DNA of 64,000 bases from Fusobacterium varium. Its GTDB lineage: Bacteria; Fusobacteriota; Fusobacteriia; Fusobacteriales; Fusobacteriaceae. The DNA is taken from positions 3,410,001 to 3,474,000 of the forward strand of contig AP017968.1 of the NCBI GenBank assembly GCA_002356455.1. Reading direction: 5' to 3'. A program made the position numbers and the translations under genes. The number at the start of each line of letters is the position of its first letter. The stretch's first letter is position 1. This document shows positions 1-7,452 of the stretch, piece by piece. The notes under the pieces were generated by a model. The model saw nothing but the letters and a program-made list of their open reading frames with translations, had not been told where the DNA came from and searched no databases.

Positions 1-278
1 ACTCCCTTTGATGGGTCTTGATGAACTTTTCCTATTCCCCAAGCTCTCTCTTCTTCTTTTAAGTCATTTATTGATCTTTCATCAAGAATAATACTTCCAG
101 CATCCTCCCTCAATGAACCGCTTATAAGGTTAAAAAGAGTACTCTTTCCACATCCATTTGACCCTAATATTGCTACAAACTCACTTTCTTCTATATTAAT
201 ATTAAAATTTTCAAATATATTTAATTCATTTTCAGTTCCACCATTAAAGCTCTTTGACAAGTTCTTTATTTTTAGCAT
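1..278 (-). CDS. ABC transporter ATP-binding protein, C-terminus cut by window edge (TrpZ-like)
   Basis: Only the first 92 codons are present; the gene runs off the left edge. The start ATG at 278 follows a strong GGAGGAG site and overlaps the end of the permease gene by 35 bases, which indicates translational coupling. The protein starts MLKIKNLSKSF and has a Walker A motif, GSNGCGKST, near residue 45, followed by a Q-loop region (HQDPSKG). It should be the cytoplasmic ATPase that energises import by the substrate-binding protein and permease encoded just upstream. Family membership (COG1101, TrpXYZ-type uptake system) is inferred mostly from the partner genes. The substrate cannot be read from this fragment. 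Confidence 0.9.
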   Translation of the reverse strand, partial: MLKIKNLSKSFNGGTENELNIFENFNINIEESEFVAILGSNGCGKSTLFNLISGSLREDAGSIILDERSINDLKEEERAWGIGKVHQDPSKG

Positions 279-1134
279 TTTCTTCTCCTCCCTTCTTTTT
301 TAAACTAAAGAATGATGCATTATTATATCCTATAAATATTATCACTATTATTGCACTGATAGCTTTCAAATCTGTTGGAGCAAGACCTAAATCTATTGCT
401 ATTCCCCCTATTATTTTATAGCTTATAGAACCTAGTATTGCTCTTGTTGTTCCTTTTAACTTTGTTGATTTTTTAAGAATTGTATCTCCTATTATTATAG
501 AAGCAAGTGCAGAAACTATTATAGAAGTTCCCATATTTATATCTGCGAATCCCTGCCTTTGTCCCATAAGAGCTCCACTTACAGCTACCAGTCCATTTGA
601 AAGCATAAGACCTAAAAGTTTAAATTTATCACAACTCACACCTAAAGATTTTACAAGAGTTTCATTATCTCCAGTTGCTATAAGAAGATATCCTATTTCT
701 GTTTTAAGGAACATATCCATCAATATTTTTATAATCATAACTATTATCACAAGAACTACTATCTTATTTCCTAATGAGAAAACAGATGGACTGTTATATA
801 GAGGAATATTAGCTTTTCCATTTATTCTCAAATTTACAGAATAAAGAATAGTCATTGTAAGAATTCCAGCTAATATAGGAGCTATTTTCATTTTTATATG
901 CAGAAAATATGTTATCACCCCAGCTAATGATCCAAATACAAATGCTAAAACTGTACTTGTTATTGGATCAAGACCTAAAGTTGCGAATCTTGCGAAGATA
1001 AATGCTCCAAATGGAAATGTTCCTTCAACTGACAAATCAGGAAAATCCAAAATCTTATATGTTATAAATACTCCCATTGCTAATACTGCAAATATGAGTC
1101 CCTGTTCTATTGATATAGTCATTAACGAATTCAT
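244..1134 (-). CDS. ABC transporter permease (COG4120, TrpY-like)
   Basis: A 296-residue, highly hydrophobic protein with about eight membrane segments. It belongs to the permease family related to branched-chain amino acid permeases that pairs with COG2984 binding proteins. Recognisable features are the N-terminal ISIEQGLIFAVLAMGVFITYKILD stretch (helix 1 and the conserved F-D-L-S-VEG segment that follows) and GQRQGFADINMGTSIIVSALASIIIGD late in the protein, typical of this family. It sits 16 bases after the binding-protein gene and overlaps the ATPase gene, forming a three-gene import operon. It probably forms a homodimeric channel in the inner membrane. In streptococci this family is linked to tryptophan uptake, but the local HutP-like regulator leaves the substrate open. 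Confidence 0.9.
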   Translation of the reverse strand: MNSLMTISIEQGLIFAVLAMGVFITYKILDFPDLSVEGTFPFGAFIFARFATLGLDPITSTVLAFVFGSLAGVITYFLHIKMKIAPILAGILTMTILYSVNLRINGKANIPLYNSPSVFSLGNKIVVLVIIVMIIKILMDMFLKTEIGYLLIATGDNETLVKSLGVSCDKFKLLGLMLSNGLVAVSGALMGQRQGFADINMGTSIIVSALASIIIGDTILKKSTKLKGTTRAILGSISYKIIGGIAIDLGLAPTDLKAISAIIVIIFIGYNNASFFSLKKKGGEENAKNKELVKEL

Positions 1135-1150: not shown

Positions 1151-2119
1151 CTATTGTTCTATAAATTCTGCTCCTTCAAAAACTGGAAGCTCTTTATTTA
1201 ATTTAAGATTTTTCATTGTTTTTTCATTTACTACTTTAGTAGTGTTAGCTAATGTTTCCACTGGCATATCTTCTGGTTTCTTTCCATCAACAAGTATTTC
1301 TTTAGCCATACGACCAGTTTGTCTTCCTAATTCATAATAACTAAGTCCATCTGTTAAAAGTATTCCACCTTTTACATGAGCTTCCTCTGCTCCAACTGTT
1401 ACCATTCCTCTTTCATTAGCTGCCATAGAAATAAGATTTATAGCAGAAGCAACTATATTATCTGTGATAGTATAGAATCCATCTACTTTAGATATCATAG
1501 AATTTACAGCCTGAGGTATATCATTAATATTATTTACTCCAACAGCTCTTATTTCAAGCCCTAACTTTGCCCCTATTTCTTTTGCATTGGCCACTTGTAT
1601 TTCTGAGTTTGACTCACTTGTATTATATATTATTCCCACTTTTTTAATTTTAGGATTAATTTTTTGAAATAGCCCTAATTGTTTTTCCATAGGAGTTGCA
1701 TCAGTTGTTCCTGTTACATTTCCTCCTACTTTATCCATTGTTTTTACTAATTGCGAATTTACTGGATCTGTCACTGCACTGAAAAGAACTGGTATATTAT
1801 CAGTTGACTGTTTGGCAGCCTGGGCTGATACAGTTGCTATTCCAAATATAAGATCTGATTTATCTGATACAAATTTCTGTGCTATTACTCCTGCTACTCC
1901 AGTATCTCCCTGTGAATTTTTATATGTTATGTCTGCGTTTACTCCTAAAGATTTTAACTCATCTTCAAAACCTTTTCTAACATCATCTAATGCTGGATGT
2001 TCTGCAAATTGTGAAATACCTATTTTAAATTTTTTTCCCTCTTGAGCTACACTCTGTACTCCAATGATAGTTAGAAACATTATCATCATCATTAATCTCT
2101 GTCCTACTTTTATTTTCAT
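1151..2119 (-). CDS. ABC transporter substrate-binding protein (COG2984, TrpX-like)
   Basis: A 322-residue periplasmic binding protein. I chose the ATG at 2119 because it follows AGGAGGAG; the longer open frame to 2206 reads through the terminator hairpin and has no ribosome site. The N-terminus (MKIKVGQRLMMMIMFLTIIG) is a signal peptide ending near SVAQ; no lipobox Cys is seen. The mature part has the ABC_sub_bind fold: KFKIGISQFAEHPALDDVRKGF at the start and VTDPVNSQLV and GNVTGTTDATPMEKQLGLF in the middle, typical of the TrpX family. It is the first gene of the importer operon, and its leader carries a transcription attenuator. The substrate is probably an amino acid (inference). Confidence 0.9.
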   Translation of the reverse strand: MKIKVGQRLMMMIMFLTIIGVQSVAQEGKKFKIGISQFAEHPALDDVRKGFEDELKSLGVNADITYKNSQGDTGVAGVIAQKFVSDKSDLIFGIATVSAQAAKQSTDNIPVLFSAVTDPVNSQLVKTMDKVGGNVTGTTDATPMEKQLGLFQKINPKIKKVGIIYNTSESNSEIQVANAKEIGAKLGLEIRAVGVNNINDIPQAVNSMISKVDGFYTITDNIVASAINLISMAANERGMVTVGAEEAHVKGGILLTDGLSYYELGRQTGRMAKEILVDGKKPEDMPVETLANTTKVVNEKTMKNLKLNKELPVFEGAEFIEQ

Positions 2120-2151
2120 TTTCTCCTCCTGATTATTATTGAATAGAAAAT

Positions 2152-2185
2152 AAAAAAACCTTTTTACATAAAATTGTAAAAAGGT
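2152..2185 (-). terminator. Leader terminator (attenuator) upstream of the ABC importer
   Basis: Perfect 10-bp inverted repeat (ACCTTTTTAC / GTAAAAAGGT, arms 2176-2185 and 2158-2167) with an 8-nt loop, followed on the minus strand by seven U residues. It lies between the promoter at 2335-2363 and the start codon at 2119, so transcripts must read through it to express the importer. A second copy of the 5' arm (ACCTTTTAC, about 2230-2238) and a separate small hairpin at 2205-2228 lie just upstream and could form alternative structures. Confidence 0.85.
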
Positions 2186-2249
2186 AAAATTAACATAATA
2201 CAACAAATCCCCTTCAAAAAGGTGATTTTGTAAAAGGTATTAAATTTTT

Positions 2250-2312
2250 CTACTATCCTACAATTCTACTGTTTTGTTTTTCTATTTCTTTTCAATTCCT
2301 ACTATTTTACTA
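2250..2312 (-). promoter_or_regulatory. UAG-triplet cluster in the leader RNA, candidate HutP-type binding site
   Basis: The transcribed leader contains eight UAG triplets within 63 nt, at plus-strand positions 2310-2312, 2302-2304, 2299-2301, 2282-2284, 2266-2268, 2258-2260, 2253-2255 and 2250-2252. They form two groups that share UAG-N5-UAG and a directly repeated UAGUAG. About one would be expected by chance at this base composition. HutP of Bacillus binds UAG triplets in its leader RNA to prevent termination, and a HutP-family gene lies directly upstream. The binding role here is inference from that juxtaposition. Confidence 0.6.
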
Positions 2313-2334
2313 TTCTGCATGTTCATTAATAAAA

Positions 2335-2363
2335 ATTATATAAAAAATCTCTGTTTTTGTCAA
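2335..2363 (-). promoter_or_regulatory. Consensus sigma-70 promoter of the ABC importer operon
   Basis: Exact TTGACA (2358-2363) and exact TATAAT (2335-2340) separated by 17 bases on the minus strand. It begins within 10 bases of the hutP-like stop codon. Expected transcription start is near 2328, giving a leader of about 200 nt before the ATG at 2119. Such a strong promoter followed by a terminator fits control by antitermination. Confidence 0.9.
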
Positions 2364-2370
2364 CTGTTAT

Positions 2371-2793
2371 TTATTCCTGCTCTACTGGTACTGCTCTATG
2401 TCCTAGTCCAATTACTACTTCATCCAATCTGAACATTCCTATTGTTAAAAAAATACATACTGAAAGATGTTCCTGACATCTTGCAATTCCTATTTTCCCA
2501 CCAACATTAAAGCCAACTGCTTTATCCATTATTTGAGCTATAGCTTCTCTTGTAGCTCCTGTAAGAGCTCCTTCATATATATGAGATTCTGATATTATTC
2601 CATTTCTTTTAGAAGCCACTAAAGCTCTCTCTAAAATTTTAGAAATAGAATCAACCACATTTCCCCCTATATCCACAGCAGCTGTTTTTATTCCTGAATT
2701 AAGATATTTTACTTTAAGTTCTGCTTCTTCCTCTCTTGAACTCATAGCCATTATAACTGAAGCTTTTGCTATGTCTTTACTTTTATATTGCAT
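2371..2793 (-). CDS. HutP-family RNA-binding antiterminator
   Basis: A 140-residue protein. The start at 2793 follows GAGGTG; an ATG at 2814 has no ribosome site. It resembles Bacillus HutP along most of its length: the central SKRNGIISESHIYEGALTGAT helix region aligns with HutP's KKSGVIQSE...HALYHAT, and the C-terminal LTIGMFRL...VIGLGHRAV aligns with YGTIGAP...FGVGINHI. Length matches the family (about 148). HutP binds L-histidine and Mg2+ and then UAG-containing RNA, blocking a terminator. The two His that bind Mg in the HALYH segment are Gly here (GALTG), so the ligand or metal use may differ. Its RNA target is probably the UAG-rich leader directly downstream, upstream of the ABC importer genes. 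Confidence 0.8.
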   Translation of the reverse strand: MQYKSKDIAKASVIMAMSSREEEAELKVKYLNSGIKTAAVDIGGNVVDSISKILERALVASKRNGIISESHIYEGALTGATREAIAQIMDKAVGFNVGGKIGIARCQEHLSVCIFLTIGMFRLDEVVIGLGHRAVPVEQE

Positions 2794-4798: not shown

Positions 4799-6295
4799 CT
4801 AACCATTTAATGCCAAATAGTTTATTTTTTCTATATTTATGTCATTGCCTCTAAGTTCACTGATAAAATTTCCCCTTTTTAATACAAGAACTCTATCTGC
4901 TATTCTTTCTACTTCTCCAAGATCAGAAGATATAAAAATTATTCCTACTCCTTTAGCTGCATAATCTTCAATTACTTTAAAGATATCTTCTTTGGCATTT
5001 ACATCTATTCCTTTTGTTGGCTCATCAAATATCAAAATTTTCAAATCCATATCTTTCCATTTTGATATAACTATTTTTTGCTGATTTCCACCGCTAAGAC
5101 TTGATACTTTTAAATCATAATCTGAAACTTTTATTGAAAGACCTTTTATTGATTCTTCAATATGTTTATTTTCTTTTTTACTGTTTAAAAGAACACCAGA
5201 CAACATCTTTTTTATCTGTATCAATGTAGAATTATCTTTTATTGTATGTTTCAATATAAGTCCAAAGTTCTTTCTATCTTCTGGTATAAGCCCTATTCCA
5301 TTTTTTATAGCATCTTTAGGATGATAAAACTTCTTCTTTTTTCCTTCAAGATAGATATCTCCTTTGTTTATTTCTCTTGCTCCAAATATACATTCTGCTA
5401 ATTCACTTCTTCCAGAACCAACTAACCCTGCTATCCCTAGTACCTCTCCTCTTTTCACATAAAAAGATACATCCTTTAATATATTTTTATATTCTAATTC
5501 TTTTACTTCAAGAATTACTTCATTTCTATTCTCTTTTTTTTCTCTTATATTTCCTTTTTTTACTGCTTTTCCTGTCATTAATTCTACTACTTTATCTTTT
5601 GTAAGTTCTGAAACTTTTTTAGTAGCTATAAATTCTCCATCTCTCAATACACTTATTCTATCGCATACTGAAAATACTTCCTCAAGCATATGTGAAATAT
5701 ATATTACTGTCTTTCCAGCTTCTTTTAGTCTTCTTATAACATCAAATAAAGATTTTTTCTCTTTTTCTGATAATGAAGTAGTTGGTTCATCCATTATTAT
5801 AATATCTGAATCATTTGCTACTACTTTAAGTATTTCTATCATCTGCTGTTTAGATATACTCATATTTCTAGTTATTTCCATAGGATCTATATCAAAATTT
5901 AATTTTTCACACAGTTCCTTAAATCTTTTAATCATAGCTATATCATCAGTAAATATGCCATATTTTTTTATTTCATTTCCTACAAAAAGGTTTTCATAAT
6001 TTTTAAGTGTTGATACAAGGCTTAGTTCTTGATATATTATACTTATTCCTTTTTCCTGTGCTTCTAAAGGCGTTTTAAATTTTTCTACGTTTCCTTTATA
6101 TATAAGCTCCCCTCCATTAGCCTCATGTACCCCACATATTATCTTCATCAAAGTAGATTTTCCAGCACCATTTGCTCCTATTATTGCATGAACTTCCCCT
6201 TTTTTTATTTCAATATTTATATTTTTTAAAACTTCTACTTTGGAAAAAGATTTACTTATATTTTTACAATTCAGAATTACATCTCCTAATCGCAT
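4799..6295 (-). CDS. Sugar ABC transporter ATP-binding protein, duplicated type (RbsA/MglA-like)
   Basis: A 498-residue cytoplasmic ATPase with two tandem ABC domains. The first domain has Walker A GANGAGKST (40-48) and Walker B IIIMDEPTTSL. The second has a degenerate P-loop (GLVGSGRSEL), the signature LSGGNQQKIV, and Walker B ILIFDEPTKGID. This arrangement, with one weakened site, is normal for ribose/galactose importers. The start ATG follows AGGAGG and overlaps the preceding gene by 10 bases, implying translational coupling with the glycosidase-like gene. Confidence 0.95.
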   Translation of the reverse strand: MRLGDVILNCKNISKSFSKVEVLKNINIEIKKGEVHAIIGANGAGKSTLMKIICGVHEANGGELIYKGNVEKFKTPLEAQEKGISIIYQELSLVSTLKNYENLFVGNEIKKYGIFTDDIAMIKRFKELCEKLNFDIDPMEITRNMSISKQQMIEILKVVANDSDIIIMDEPTTSLSEKEKKSLFDVIRRLKEAGKTVIYISHMLEEVFSVCDRISVLRDGEFIATKKVSELTKDKVVELMTGKAVKKGNIREKKENRNEVILEVKELEYKNILKDVSFYVKRGEVLGIAGLVGSGRSELAECIFGAREINKGDIYLEGKKKKFYHPKDAIKNGIGLIPEDRKNFGLILKHTIKDNSTLIQIKKMLSGVLLNSKKENKHIEESIKGLSIKVSDYDLKVSSLSGGNQQKIVISKWKDMDLKILIFDEPTKGIDVNAKEDIFKVIEDYAAKGVGIIFISSDLGEVERIADRVLVLKRGNFISELRGNDINIEKINYLALNG

Positions 6296-7440
6296 TTTTC
6301 CTCCTTTTCCAGAAATATCTTCAAATGCTCCTCAGGTATACTCATCAAATCCCATGAAAGAACTATTCCTTTTGAATTTCCCGTTTCTAAAATATCAAAT
6401 ACTTCTTTTATATATTCTTCATCACTCAATGCAATATTTTCTTTTTTGTTAAAGTCTATTCCTGGAAATATATTCTCCAAATTTTCAGATAGATATTTTA
6501 CTTCTTCTATCATTTGAGTTTTTCCTATATTATCTTTTAAATTTTTTTCTCCTATTATATTTAAAAGAAATTCTCCTGCTTCTCTATTATACATTTTTTT
6601 AAAAGTTTGAATTTCAAAAGGTATTCCTGCAGGTGCATAAGTTCTTCTATAATACATTGGTTTAATAAAATCTGCTTTTTGACCAAGTTTGATTATATCT
6701 TGTCCAAAGAGATAAGAAATATCAGAAGCATATGTATCTAAGCCAACTTCCAGTCCTTTAATTTTAAAAAAGTCTATAAGTTCATTTATTTTTTCAATTA
6801 TTGAGTTATTTTTAAATTGAAAATACTGGTCCATTTCTTTATTTTTAAATTTATATCTAAAATCCTCACATTTTTCTATTTCAAGAGGATTACTTTCTAA
6901 TTTTTTGAAAGTTTCCTCAATATATATTTTTAATTTTTCTACATTTATTCCCTTTTTCCTCATTTTCTCTGTACATACAGGACAAAAACAGCTAAATACA
7001 GCTTTCCCTCCATTTGAAAACGCTGGGTATCTTATTTTATCAAGAAAAACTCCATCTATTTCATAATCTGAAAACTTCTCATTAAATATTTCTTTTATAT
7101 TTTTAATATTTTCAATAGTATTAGGGCAATAAAATTCAAAATTTTCACCTTCTTGAAATGAAAAATTTTCTATTTCTTCTTCTTTATAATCTAATACTTT
7201 AGTGAATTTTTTATAATGAGATAATTCTGAAAATACTGGAAACCAAAAATATAATTTTGTTTGATATAGTCTTAAAAAATTCTTTAGTTCCCTGTATAAT
7301 TCTTTATTTTCATTCCAACCTATAATAATTCCATCTATTTTTTTTACTTTCATTATTTTTAAAAGTTTTTCTTTCAATTTATCTATATCCACTTCCAGAT
7401 TTGAAAATCCTCCAGAAAATATCTGTAAATATTTTTTCAT
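6286..7440 (-). CDS. Putative glycoside-hydrolase-like TIM-barrel protein with CxC..C cluster
   Basis: A 384-residue cytoplasmic protein without a signal peptide. I chose ATG 7440, which has a GGTGG ribosome site; ATG 7452 abuts the previous stop and has none. No family is recognised with certainty. The segment YEIDGVFLDKIRYPAF (near residue 155) resembles the conserved D-G-[IV]-x-[FL]-D-x-[IV]-R-Y-P strand of GHL-type glycosidases, and GLEVGLDTYASDISYLFGQD and KADFIKPMYYRRTYAPAG look like later barrel strands. CFCPVCTEKM is a possible metal-binding cluster. Encoded between a sugar kinase and a sugar importer, so it probably processes the imported compound (inference). Confidence 0.5.
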   Translation of the reverse strand: MKKYLQIFSGGFSNLEVDIDKLKEKLLKIMKVKKIDGIIIGWNENKELYRELKNFLRLYQTKLYFWFPVFSELSHYKKFTKVLDYKEEEIENFSFQEGENFEFYCPNTIENIKNIKEIFNEKFSDYEIDGVFLDKIRYPAFSNGGKAVFSCFCPVCTEKMRKKGINVEKLKIYIEETFKKLESNPLEIEKCEDFRYKFKNKEMDQYFQFKNNSIIEKINELIDFFKIKGLEVGLDTYASDISYLFGQDIIKLGQKADFIKPMYYRRTYAPAGIPFEIQTFKKMYNREAGEFLLNIIGEKNLKDNIGKTQMIEEVKYLSENLENIFPGIDFNKKENIALSDEEYIKEVFDILETGNSKGIVLSWDLMSIPEEHLKIFLEKEEKCD

Positions 7441-7452
7441 TTTCACCACCAT

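Follow-up and report, generated by a model that had tools for sequence, protein, structure and literature searches.

What does a protein of the HutP family control when the genes beside it encode an importer and not histidine degradation? HutP is the textbook example of an RNA switch operated by a ligand plus a metal, and it is known from one Bacillus operon. The window analysed here, a stretch of 64,000 nucleotides of Fusobacterium varium DNA (contig AP017968.1, positions 3,410,001 to 3,474,000), carries a hutP homologue, a leader rich in UAG triplets, a terminator and an importer operon, and a sequence-only reading had interpreted this arrangement as a HutP-like antitermination unit. The explanation that we favour, with moderate confidence when it is taken as a whole, combines a GxxxG subfamily of HutP, UAG triplets with a period of 8 nt and a TRAP-like turning down of the target genes, most likely in response to an aromatic amino acid. 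The features of the window from which the argument starts are the following.

2371-2793, minus strand: hutP homologue of the GxxxG subfamily, 140 aa (PF09021, E 2.5e-45; AF2 model; best PDB matches all HutP)
2335-2363, minus strand: consensus sigma-70-type promoter TTGACA-17-TATAAT (12/12 consensus), for the leader and the importer
2299-2312, minus strand: UAG site I (UAGUAAAAUAGUAG), with counterparts in relatives
2282-2284, minus strand: lone UAG between sites I and II
2250-2268, minus strand: UAG site II (UAGAAUUGUAGGAUAGUAG), the period-8 array
2248-2269, minus strand: 5' strand of the antiterminator, which includes site II; predicted partner 2189-2168, 20 bp
2168-2189, minus strand: 3' strand of the antiterminator, made of the terminator 5' arm, its loop and the bases immediately upstream (predicted fold)
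2158-2185, minus strand: intrinsic terminator hairpin, then a U run
1151-2119, minus strand: TrpX/HisX-type substrate-binding protein (PF04392)
244-1134, minus strand: permease (PF02653)
1-260, minus strand: importer ATPase gene, with a provisional start and cut by the window edge; a complete orthologue is found in L069

The assignment of the protein to the HutP family, first made by eye, was borne out by the profile search, in which it matched PF09021 with 154 bits against a curated cut-off of 25; the same model also matched B. subtilis in the control set. The start at ATG 2793 is consistent with the GAGGTG upstream of it and gives the 140 residues. With its AF2 model (mean pLDDT 91.9), rows 1-11 of the Foldseek output were all HutP, 1VEA (B. 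subtilis HutP) appearing at E 3e-10, and the comparison with 1vea_B gave Z 18.1 and 2.1 A for 128 aligned residues, ~23% of them identical. Neither phmmer with the protein nor a profile from its 20-member alignment found the solved HutP structures; the Pfam, profile-profile and fold comparisons did recover HutP. In the profile-profile alignment, Gly76 and Gly80 stand opposite His73 and His77 of Bacillus HutP, the metal-binding pair of its Mg/L-histidine site. This replacement, seen at the outset in the single protein, is general: Gly-Gly occupies both positions in 107/107 relatives collected, against His-His in 4/4 Bacillus-type HutPs, while His72, His110 and His133 are invariant across the GxxxG subfamily. 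The protein is of HutP fold and belongs to a distinct subfamily, GxxxG, which lacks His73/His77; the loss of this pair fits an altered ligand. We infer that it acts as a regulator binding single-stranded RNA. Both kinds of HutP occur in Peptoclostridium: the P. acidaminophilum plasmid (L179) has an HxxxH protein with hutH and period-7 UAGs, and P. litorale (L123) has a GxxxG protein upstream of a TrpX-type importer.

The anatomy downstream of hutP had been read correctly, with an exact consensus promoter (2363-2335), a terminator hairpin with a U tail (2185-2158) and eight UAGs in the leader, to which we add their regular period and the additional triplet that falls within it. On the minus strand the UAGs lie at 2312, 2304, 2301, 2284, 2268, 2260, 2255 and 2252. 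Group I has the form UAG-N5-UAGUAG and is followed by the lone UAG, then by group II, UAG-N5-UAG-N2-UAGUAG, in which three triplets keep a regular period of 8 nt (2268, 2260, 2252) and one additional UAG lies inside. The pattern of group II, TAGN5TAGN2TAGTAG, has a single occurrence in the window, where 0.00 were expected, and a single one in the whole 4.1 Mb genome. The UAG sites lie ~64 nt upstream of the terminator, outside its stem. The downstream operon is indeed of the TrpX type, with a PF04392 protein, a permease and an ATPase. Its binding protein reaches 266 bits with the TrpX model NF041285, under the equivalog cut-off of 390: it is a member of the TrpX superfamily, and its substrate is not assignable from the score. 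Family membership does not separate the TrpX/HisX-type importers, whose members have been assigned to either amino acid (PMC9413887, PMC9382623).

The association of hutP, UAG array and importer is conserved. Each of the 12/12 genomes of the genus Fusobacterium has one copy of hutP, and only 5 have hutH. The closest importer orthologue is present in 10 of these genomes and is preceded by a UAG array and a terminator in 10/10; hutP lies directly upstream of it in 8, and in the other two (G005 and G011; loci L044 and L045) hutP is unlinked and the importer still keeps its array. The expectation that relatives retaining the gene would also retain the UAGs thus held wherever the importer is present. 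The same arrangement was found in a relative from another genus (L019). Scanning the genomes of 85,000 species supplied 80 further relatives' loci, nearly all clostridial, in which an importer binding protein lies near hutP at 56 and hutH or hutU at none. Furthermore, 18 of the 20 fusobacteriotal genomes with an array are HutP-positive (Fisher p 2.6e-4). In a pattern scan across the Fusobacteriota, the raw array matches were not above the reversed-pattern control, the signal residing in the positions of the matches; in Clostridium, the pattern gave 27 matches and its reverse 8. In two Fusobacterium genomes (L006/L007; L067, L068), the gene after hutP encodes another permease, NhaC/ArcD-like, and has no clear array of period 8.

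What is kept within the leaders is the UAG triplets and their exact 8-nt phase, amid flanking sequence that varies. UAG pairs 8 nt apart number 52 in the Fusobacterium leaders (12 expected from shuffles), 143 in the Clostridium importer leaders (81 expected) and 19 in the Clostridium DAHP synthase leaders (7 expected), and pairs 7 nt apart are depleted in the same sets. The classic hutP-hutH leaders, a small sample (n=3) from plasmids of Cytobacillus, Priestia and Peptoclostridium, have a UAG spacing of 7 and 14 nt. About six UAGs at exact 8-nt spacing can be seen in the Clostridium vincentii DAHP synthase leader (L182, near 1477) and in a Tepidibacter importer leader (L158, 6797-6840).

The predicted folding of the leaders bears on the direction of the control. 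At minimum energy, the window leader does not fold into the terminator: site II (2269-2248) is predicted to pair with 2189-2168 over 20 bp, a central pair having a probability of 0.996 in the full-length leader. Pairing of site II with the terminator arm is predicted in 11/11 fusobacterial leaders (-12.5 to -15.1 kcal/mol), which are related and do not amount to 11 independent tests; among the controls with UAGs fixed and spacers random, at most 3/500 per leader reached such an energy. Clostridial leaders have a shorter pairing, in which the last UAG and the GGAGA that extends it (UAGGAGA) typically face UCUCCUA in the terminator arm. The changes are matched in L146 and L164, whose array has GGCGAG and whose terminator has CUCGCC. 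When each of 44 leaders was scored for its own array with its own terminator arm, the mean was -8.77, against -7.54 (sd 0.30) for permuted partners, and 0/5000 permutations were as good, in a set whose leaders are not independent and include some misassigned hairpins. The permutation of spacer letters was not significant in the leaders of the clostridial, NhaC and leptotrichial groups, where the case rests on the own-versus-permuted test.

When the UAGs of site II were masked, which keeps them unpaired as a bound HutP would, the predicted probability of the terminator rose from 0.003 to 0.994 in the window leader, and with all UAGs masked it was at least 0.997 in 11/11 fusobacterial leaders; masks on random blocks raised it above 0.5 in 10/40 controls for the window leader, which is less often than the UAG masks but not never. 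At full length, the final fold favours the terminator over the antiterminator in 3/11 fusobacterial leaders and in most clostridial ones, and the default state would therefore depend on folding during transcription, that is, on kinetics. Before the 3' arm of the terminator is made, the 5' arm is predicted to be paired with the array region in 16/19 clostridial leaders. As in attenuators of the TRAP type, the repeats proposed to bind the protein are predicted to overlap an antiterminator which is exclusive with the terminator. None of the leaders tested matched an Rfam 15 family at gathering score, the only matches being to group II introns elsewhere in L091, and the search for leader peptides with runs of aromatic or His codons was negative. 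Leader-peptide attenuation was rejected for the window leader, which contains no candidate peptide.

The sequence-only reading had named the importer as the controlled target, which is retained, but the predicted regulon is wider and includes an NhaC-family permease, AGCS symporters and DAHP synthase genes. A search of the own genome for GUAG-N4-GUAG-N4-GUAG, one mismatch allowed, gave one other meaningful place besides the importer leader, the gene of an NhaC-family permease (G000:C1:714272-715648) whose leader has, in addition to two UAG arrays, a near-identical terminator (GCCTTTTTACAATTTTATGTAAAAGGGC). Its orthologues in G008 and G009 also have arrays; ~27 other NhaC paralogues have none. 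This region (G000:C1:714086-715648; L207 1457-3020) lies downstream of a sodium symporter gene, NSS-family-like. In three Fusobacterium genomes (L075, L076 and L085, near 1501), AGCS symporter genes are preceded by an array and a terminator. In the Leptotrichiaceae, hutP adjoins shikimate kinase (aroK) and dehydroquinate dehydratase (aroQ) in 11 loci, and an array is found in the DAHP synthase leader of 5 genomes and ~0.8 kb upstream of DAHP synthase in 2 more. In Clostridium, a DAHP synthase gene followed by prephenate dehydrogenase has arrays 30-100 nt ahead of it; they are near the Shine-Dalgarno sequence, mostly with no intervening terminator, and the UAGs are 8-nt-phased in 9 of the best 11 loci, those closest to the query. 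What the targets and neighbours have in common is aromatic amino-acid synthesis and amino-acid uptake, not histidine degradation.

Control by HutP of the hut operon in the same genome (yuiF-like permease, hutH, hutU, hutI) was considered and rejected, no UAG array being found upstream of yuiF-hutH-hutU. A near-palindrome, ATTATTAAAATGTTTTTAATAAT, occurs twice upstream of yuiF-hutH-hutU-hutI (L062 7595-8060; also L064-L066) and is likely the operator of a DNA-binding regulator. Two further arrays were encountered: in Clostridium sardiniense (L181 1501-1540, reverse complement) one stands just before the start codon of a membrane-protein pair, DUF969/DUF979 permease-like, a possible translational target, and in G040 (L168 1501) one stands directly before the Shine-Dalgarno sequence of an HMGL-like aldolase gene and may be due to chance or mark a further target.

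In the model that we put forward, the GxxxG HutP loaded with an amino-acid ligand would bind the UAG triplets at their 8-nt period. In the importer leader, these triplets would constitute one strand of the antiterminator, the other being the 5' arm of the terminator. Without bound protein, the nascent RNA would make the antiterminator and the importer would be transcribed; the bound protein would hold the UAGs single-stranded, the terminator would form and transcription would stop. When the amino acid is plentiful, the importer and the NhaC-family permease of the same genome would be turned down, and in some clostridia the protein bound to arrays near the DAHP synthase ribosome-binding site would block translation. 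The ligand would most likely be an aromatic amino acid. In its fullest form, the proposal is that the whole HutP subfamily found in Fusobacteriota and Clostridia senses aromatic amino acids and acts on RNA both as an attenuator and as a translational repressor. It would do the work of TRAP with the HutP fold, reading a period-8 UAG code, and would have a ligand site rebuilt without the His pair and a regulatory sign opposite to that of Bacillus HutP; we give this version about an even chance of being correct.

The sign of the control is the point on which the model departs from the sequence-only reading. The unit might work as classic HutP does, the ligand-loaded protein on the UAGs preventing termination and the substrate inducing its own importer, in which case the complementarity of the arms would be incidental. 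The family and the fold are those of HutP, which is known to act by antitermination, a terminator is present, and the greater stability of the terminator in most full-length clostridial folds is what such a switch would want. The UAGs, however, lie outside the terminator, in the predicted antiterminator helix, whereas in the classic Peptoclostridium leader (L179) the third UAG directly adjoins the stem; within each genome, the array matches the terminator arm; and the arrays near the DAHP synthase Shine-Dalgarno sequences, with no intervening terminator, would most simply repress. We consider antitermination unlikely for these reasons. Since the UAGs would form half of an antiterminator in some leaders and lie near a ribosome-binding site in others, we infer that binding of the protein should lower expression: the anatomy predicts termination and repression. 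Of the first interpretation, the UAG leader linked to the importer is retained, the new regulon is supported, a new ligand is probable, and the antitermination is probably reversed.

A TRAP-like mechanism could also operate with histidine as the ligand, the importer being HisXYZ and the regulation a feedback repression of histidine uptake. Bacillus HutP does bind histidine, and the subfamily keeps three histidines (72, 110 and 133) without exception. One member of the importer family is HisXYZ, which in Firmicutes is under HisR or T-box(His) (PMC9413887). This possibility, which we regard as rather improbable, is opposed by the Gly at the His73/His77 positions throughout, by targets and neighbours such as DAHP synthase, prephenate dehydrogenase, shikimate kinase and dehydroquinate dehydratase, and by an own hut operon devoid of array. 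That the array is no protein site at all, the leader being an ordinary attenuator or a riboswitch of unknown type with hutP as a bystander, would agree with a leader that folds by itself into mutually exclusive structures, but is made very improbable by the Rfam and leader-peptide searches, the exact 8-nt phasing amid variable sequence and the co-occurrence of arrays with hutP across genomes.

As to the ligand of the GxxxG HutP, an aromatic amino acid of one kind or another is probable, and histidine is an unlikely candidate. Prephenate dehydrogenase leads to tyrosine, and T-box studies have reportedly proposed NhaC-type permeases as tyrosine transporters; on account of these two targets we name tyrosine as a first guess, a tentative one. 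Tryptophan is a less likely substrate of the hutP-linked importer. In five Fusobacterium genomes, a paralogous importer cluster has a leader peptide, MMNRFTWWWQNK, with the run WWW, which is a probable tryptophan attenuator; this points to tryptophan as the substrate of the paralogue and to another one for the hutP-linked importer.

The system can be set beside three known ones. With B. subtilis HutP (PF09021; 1VEA, 1WMQ, 1WPU) it shares the fold, the family, a UAG leader downstream of its own gene and a leader terminator. It differs in the low sequence identity, in the Gly residues opposite His73/His77, in a UAG period of 8 and not 7, in targets that are importers, permeases and DAHP synthase and not hut genes, and in the predicted promotion of termination; of the traits of hut antitermination, namely a period of 7 (UAG plus 4 nt), UAGs at or in the stem and histidine-degradation targets, none was found here. 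TRAP (MtrB) of Bacillus is activated by an amino acid, binds a row of (G/U)AG repeats, located within an antiterminator or close to a Shine-Dalgarno sequence, and has targets in aromatic synthesis and transport; it is an 11-mer ring whose repeats, usually 9-11, are 4-5 nt apart. The resemblance lies in the row of repeats and its two placements, in the aromatic synthesis and transport targets and in the amino-acid activation that we propose; unlike TRAP, the present protein has the HutP fold without MtrB homology, and 3-6 UAGs recur every 8 nt. The HisXYZ/TrpXYZ importers described under HisR or T-box control (PMC9413887, PMC9382623) are of the same importer family and, as in our model, are lowered when the amino acid is plentiful, but by the DNA-binding HisR or the tRNA-sensing T-box, where we propose a HutP-family protein. 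The survey of HisR and T-box makes no mention of HutP or Fusobacteria (PMC9413887), and in the open-access literature we found no description of the GxxxG subfamily or its leaders, nor of HutP paired with Fusobacterium or aromatic pathways, an absence that is not proof.

If the model is right, most HutP relatives in Clostridia and Fusobacteria would sense another ligand, use another UAG spacing and switch genes off, and the uptake and synthesis of aromatic amino acids would form a widespread regulon in gut and oral anaerobes. It would constitute a second evolutionary solution to the task of TRAP and open a direct route to the substrates of TrpX/HisX-type importers, at present annotated by guess.

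Three other regions deserve mention. The genome encodes two tandem TrpX-type binding proteins (G000:C1:812895-814859; L058, L053; also L057, L059, L060 and L061), of which the first has MMNRFTWWWQNK and a following terminator-like region. A block UACGAACAA...GGAACAAAUA...AAUUGUUAUCUA, some 200 nt ahead of the second TrpX paralogue (L047-L056), is conserved across Fusobacterium species and might serve as a DNA operator or as a regulatory RNA. Finally, the minus strand of the window encodes, at 6286-7452, a 388-aa protein without Pfam match, which belongs to the neighbouring sugar-transport/BadF-kinase cluster.
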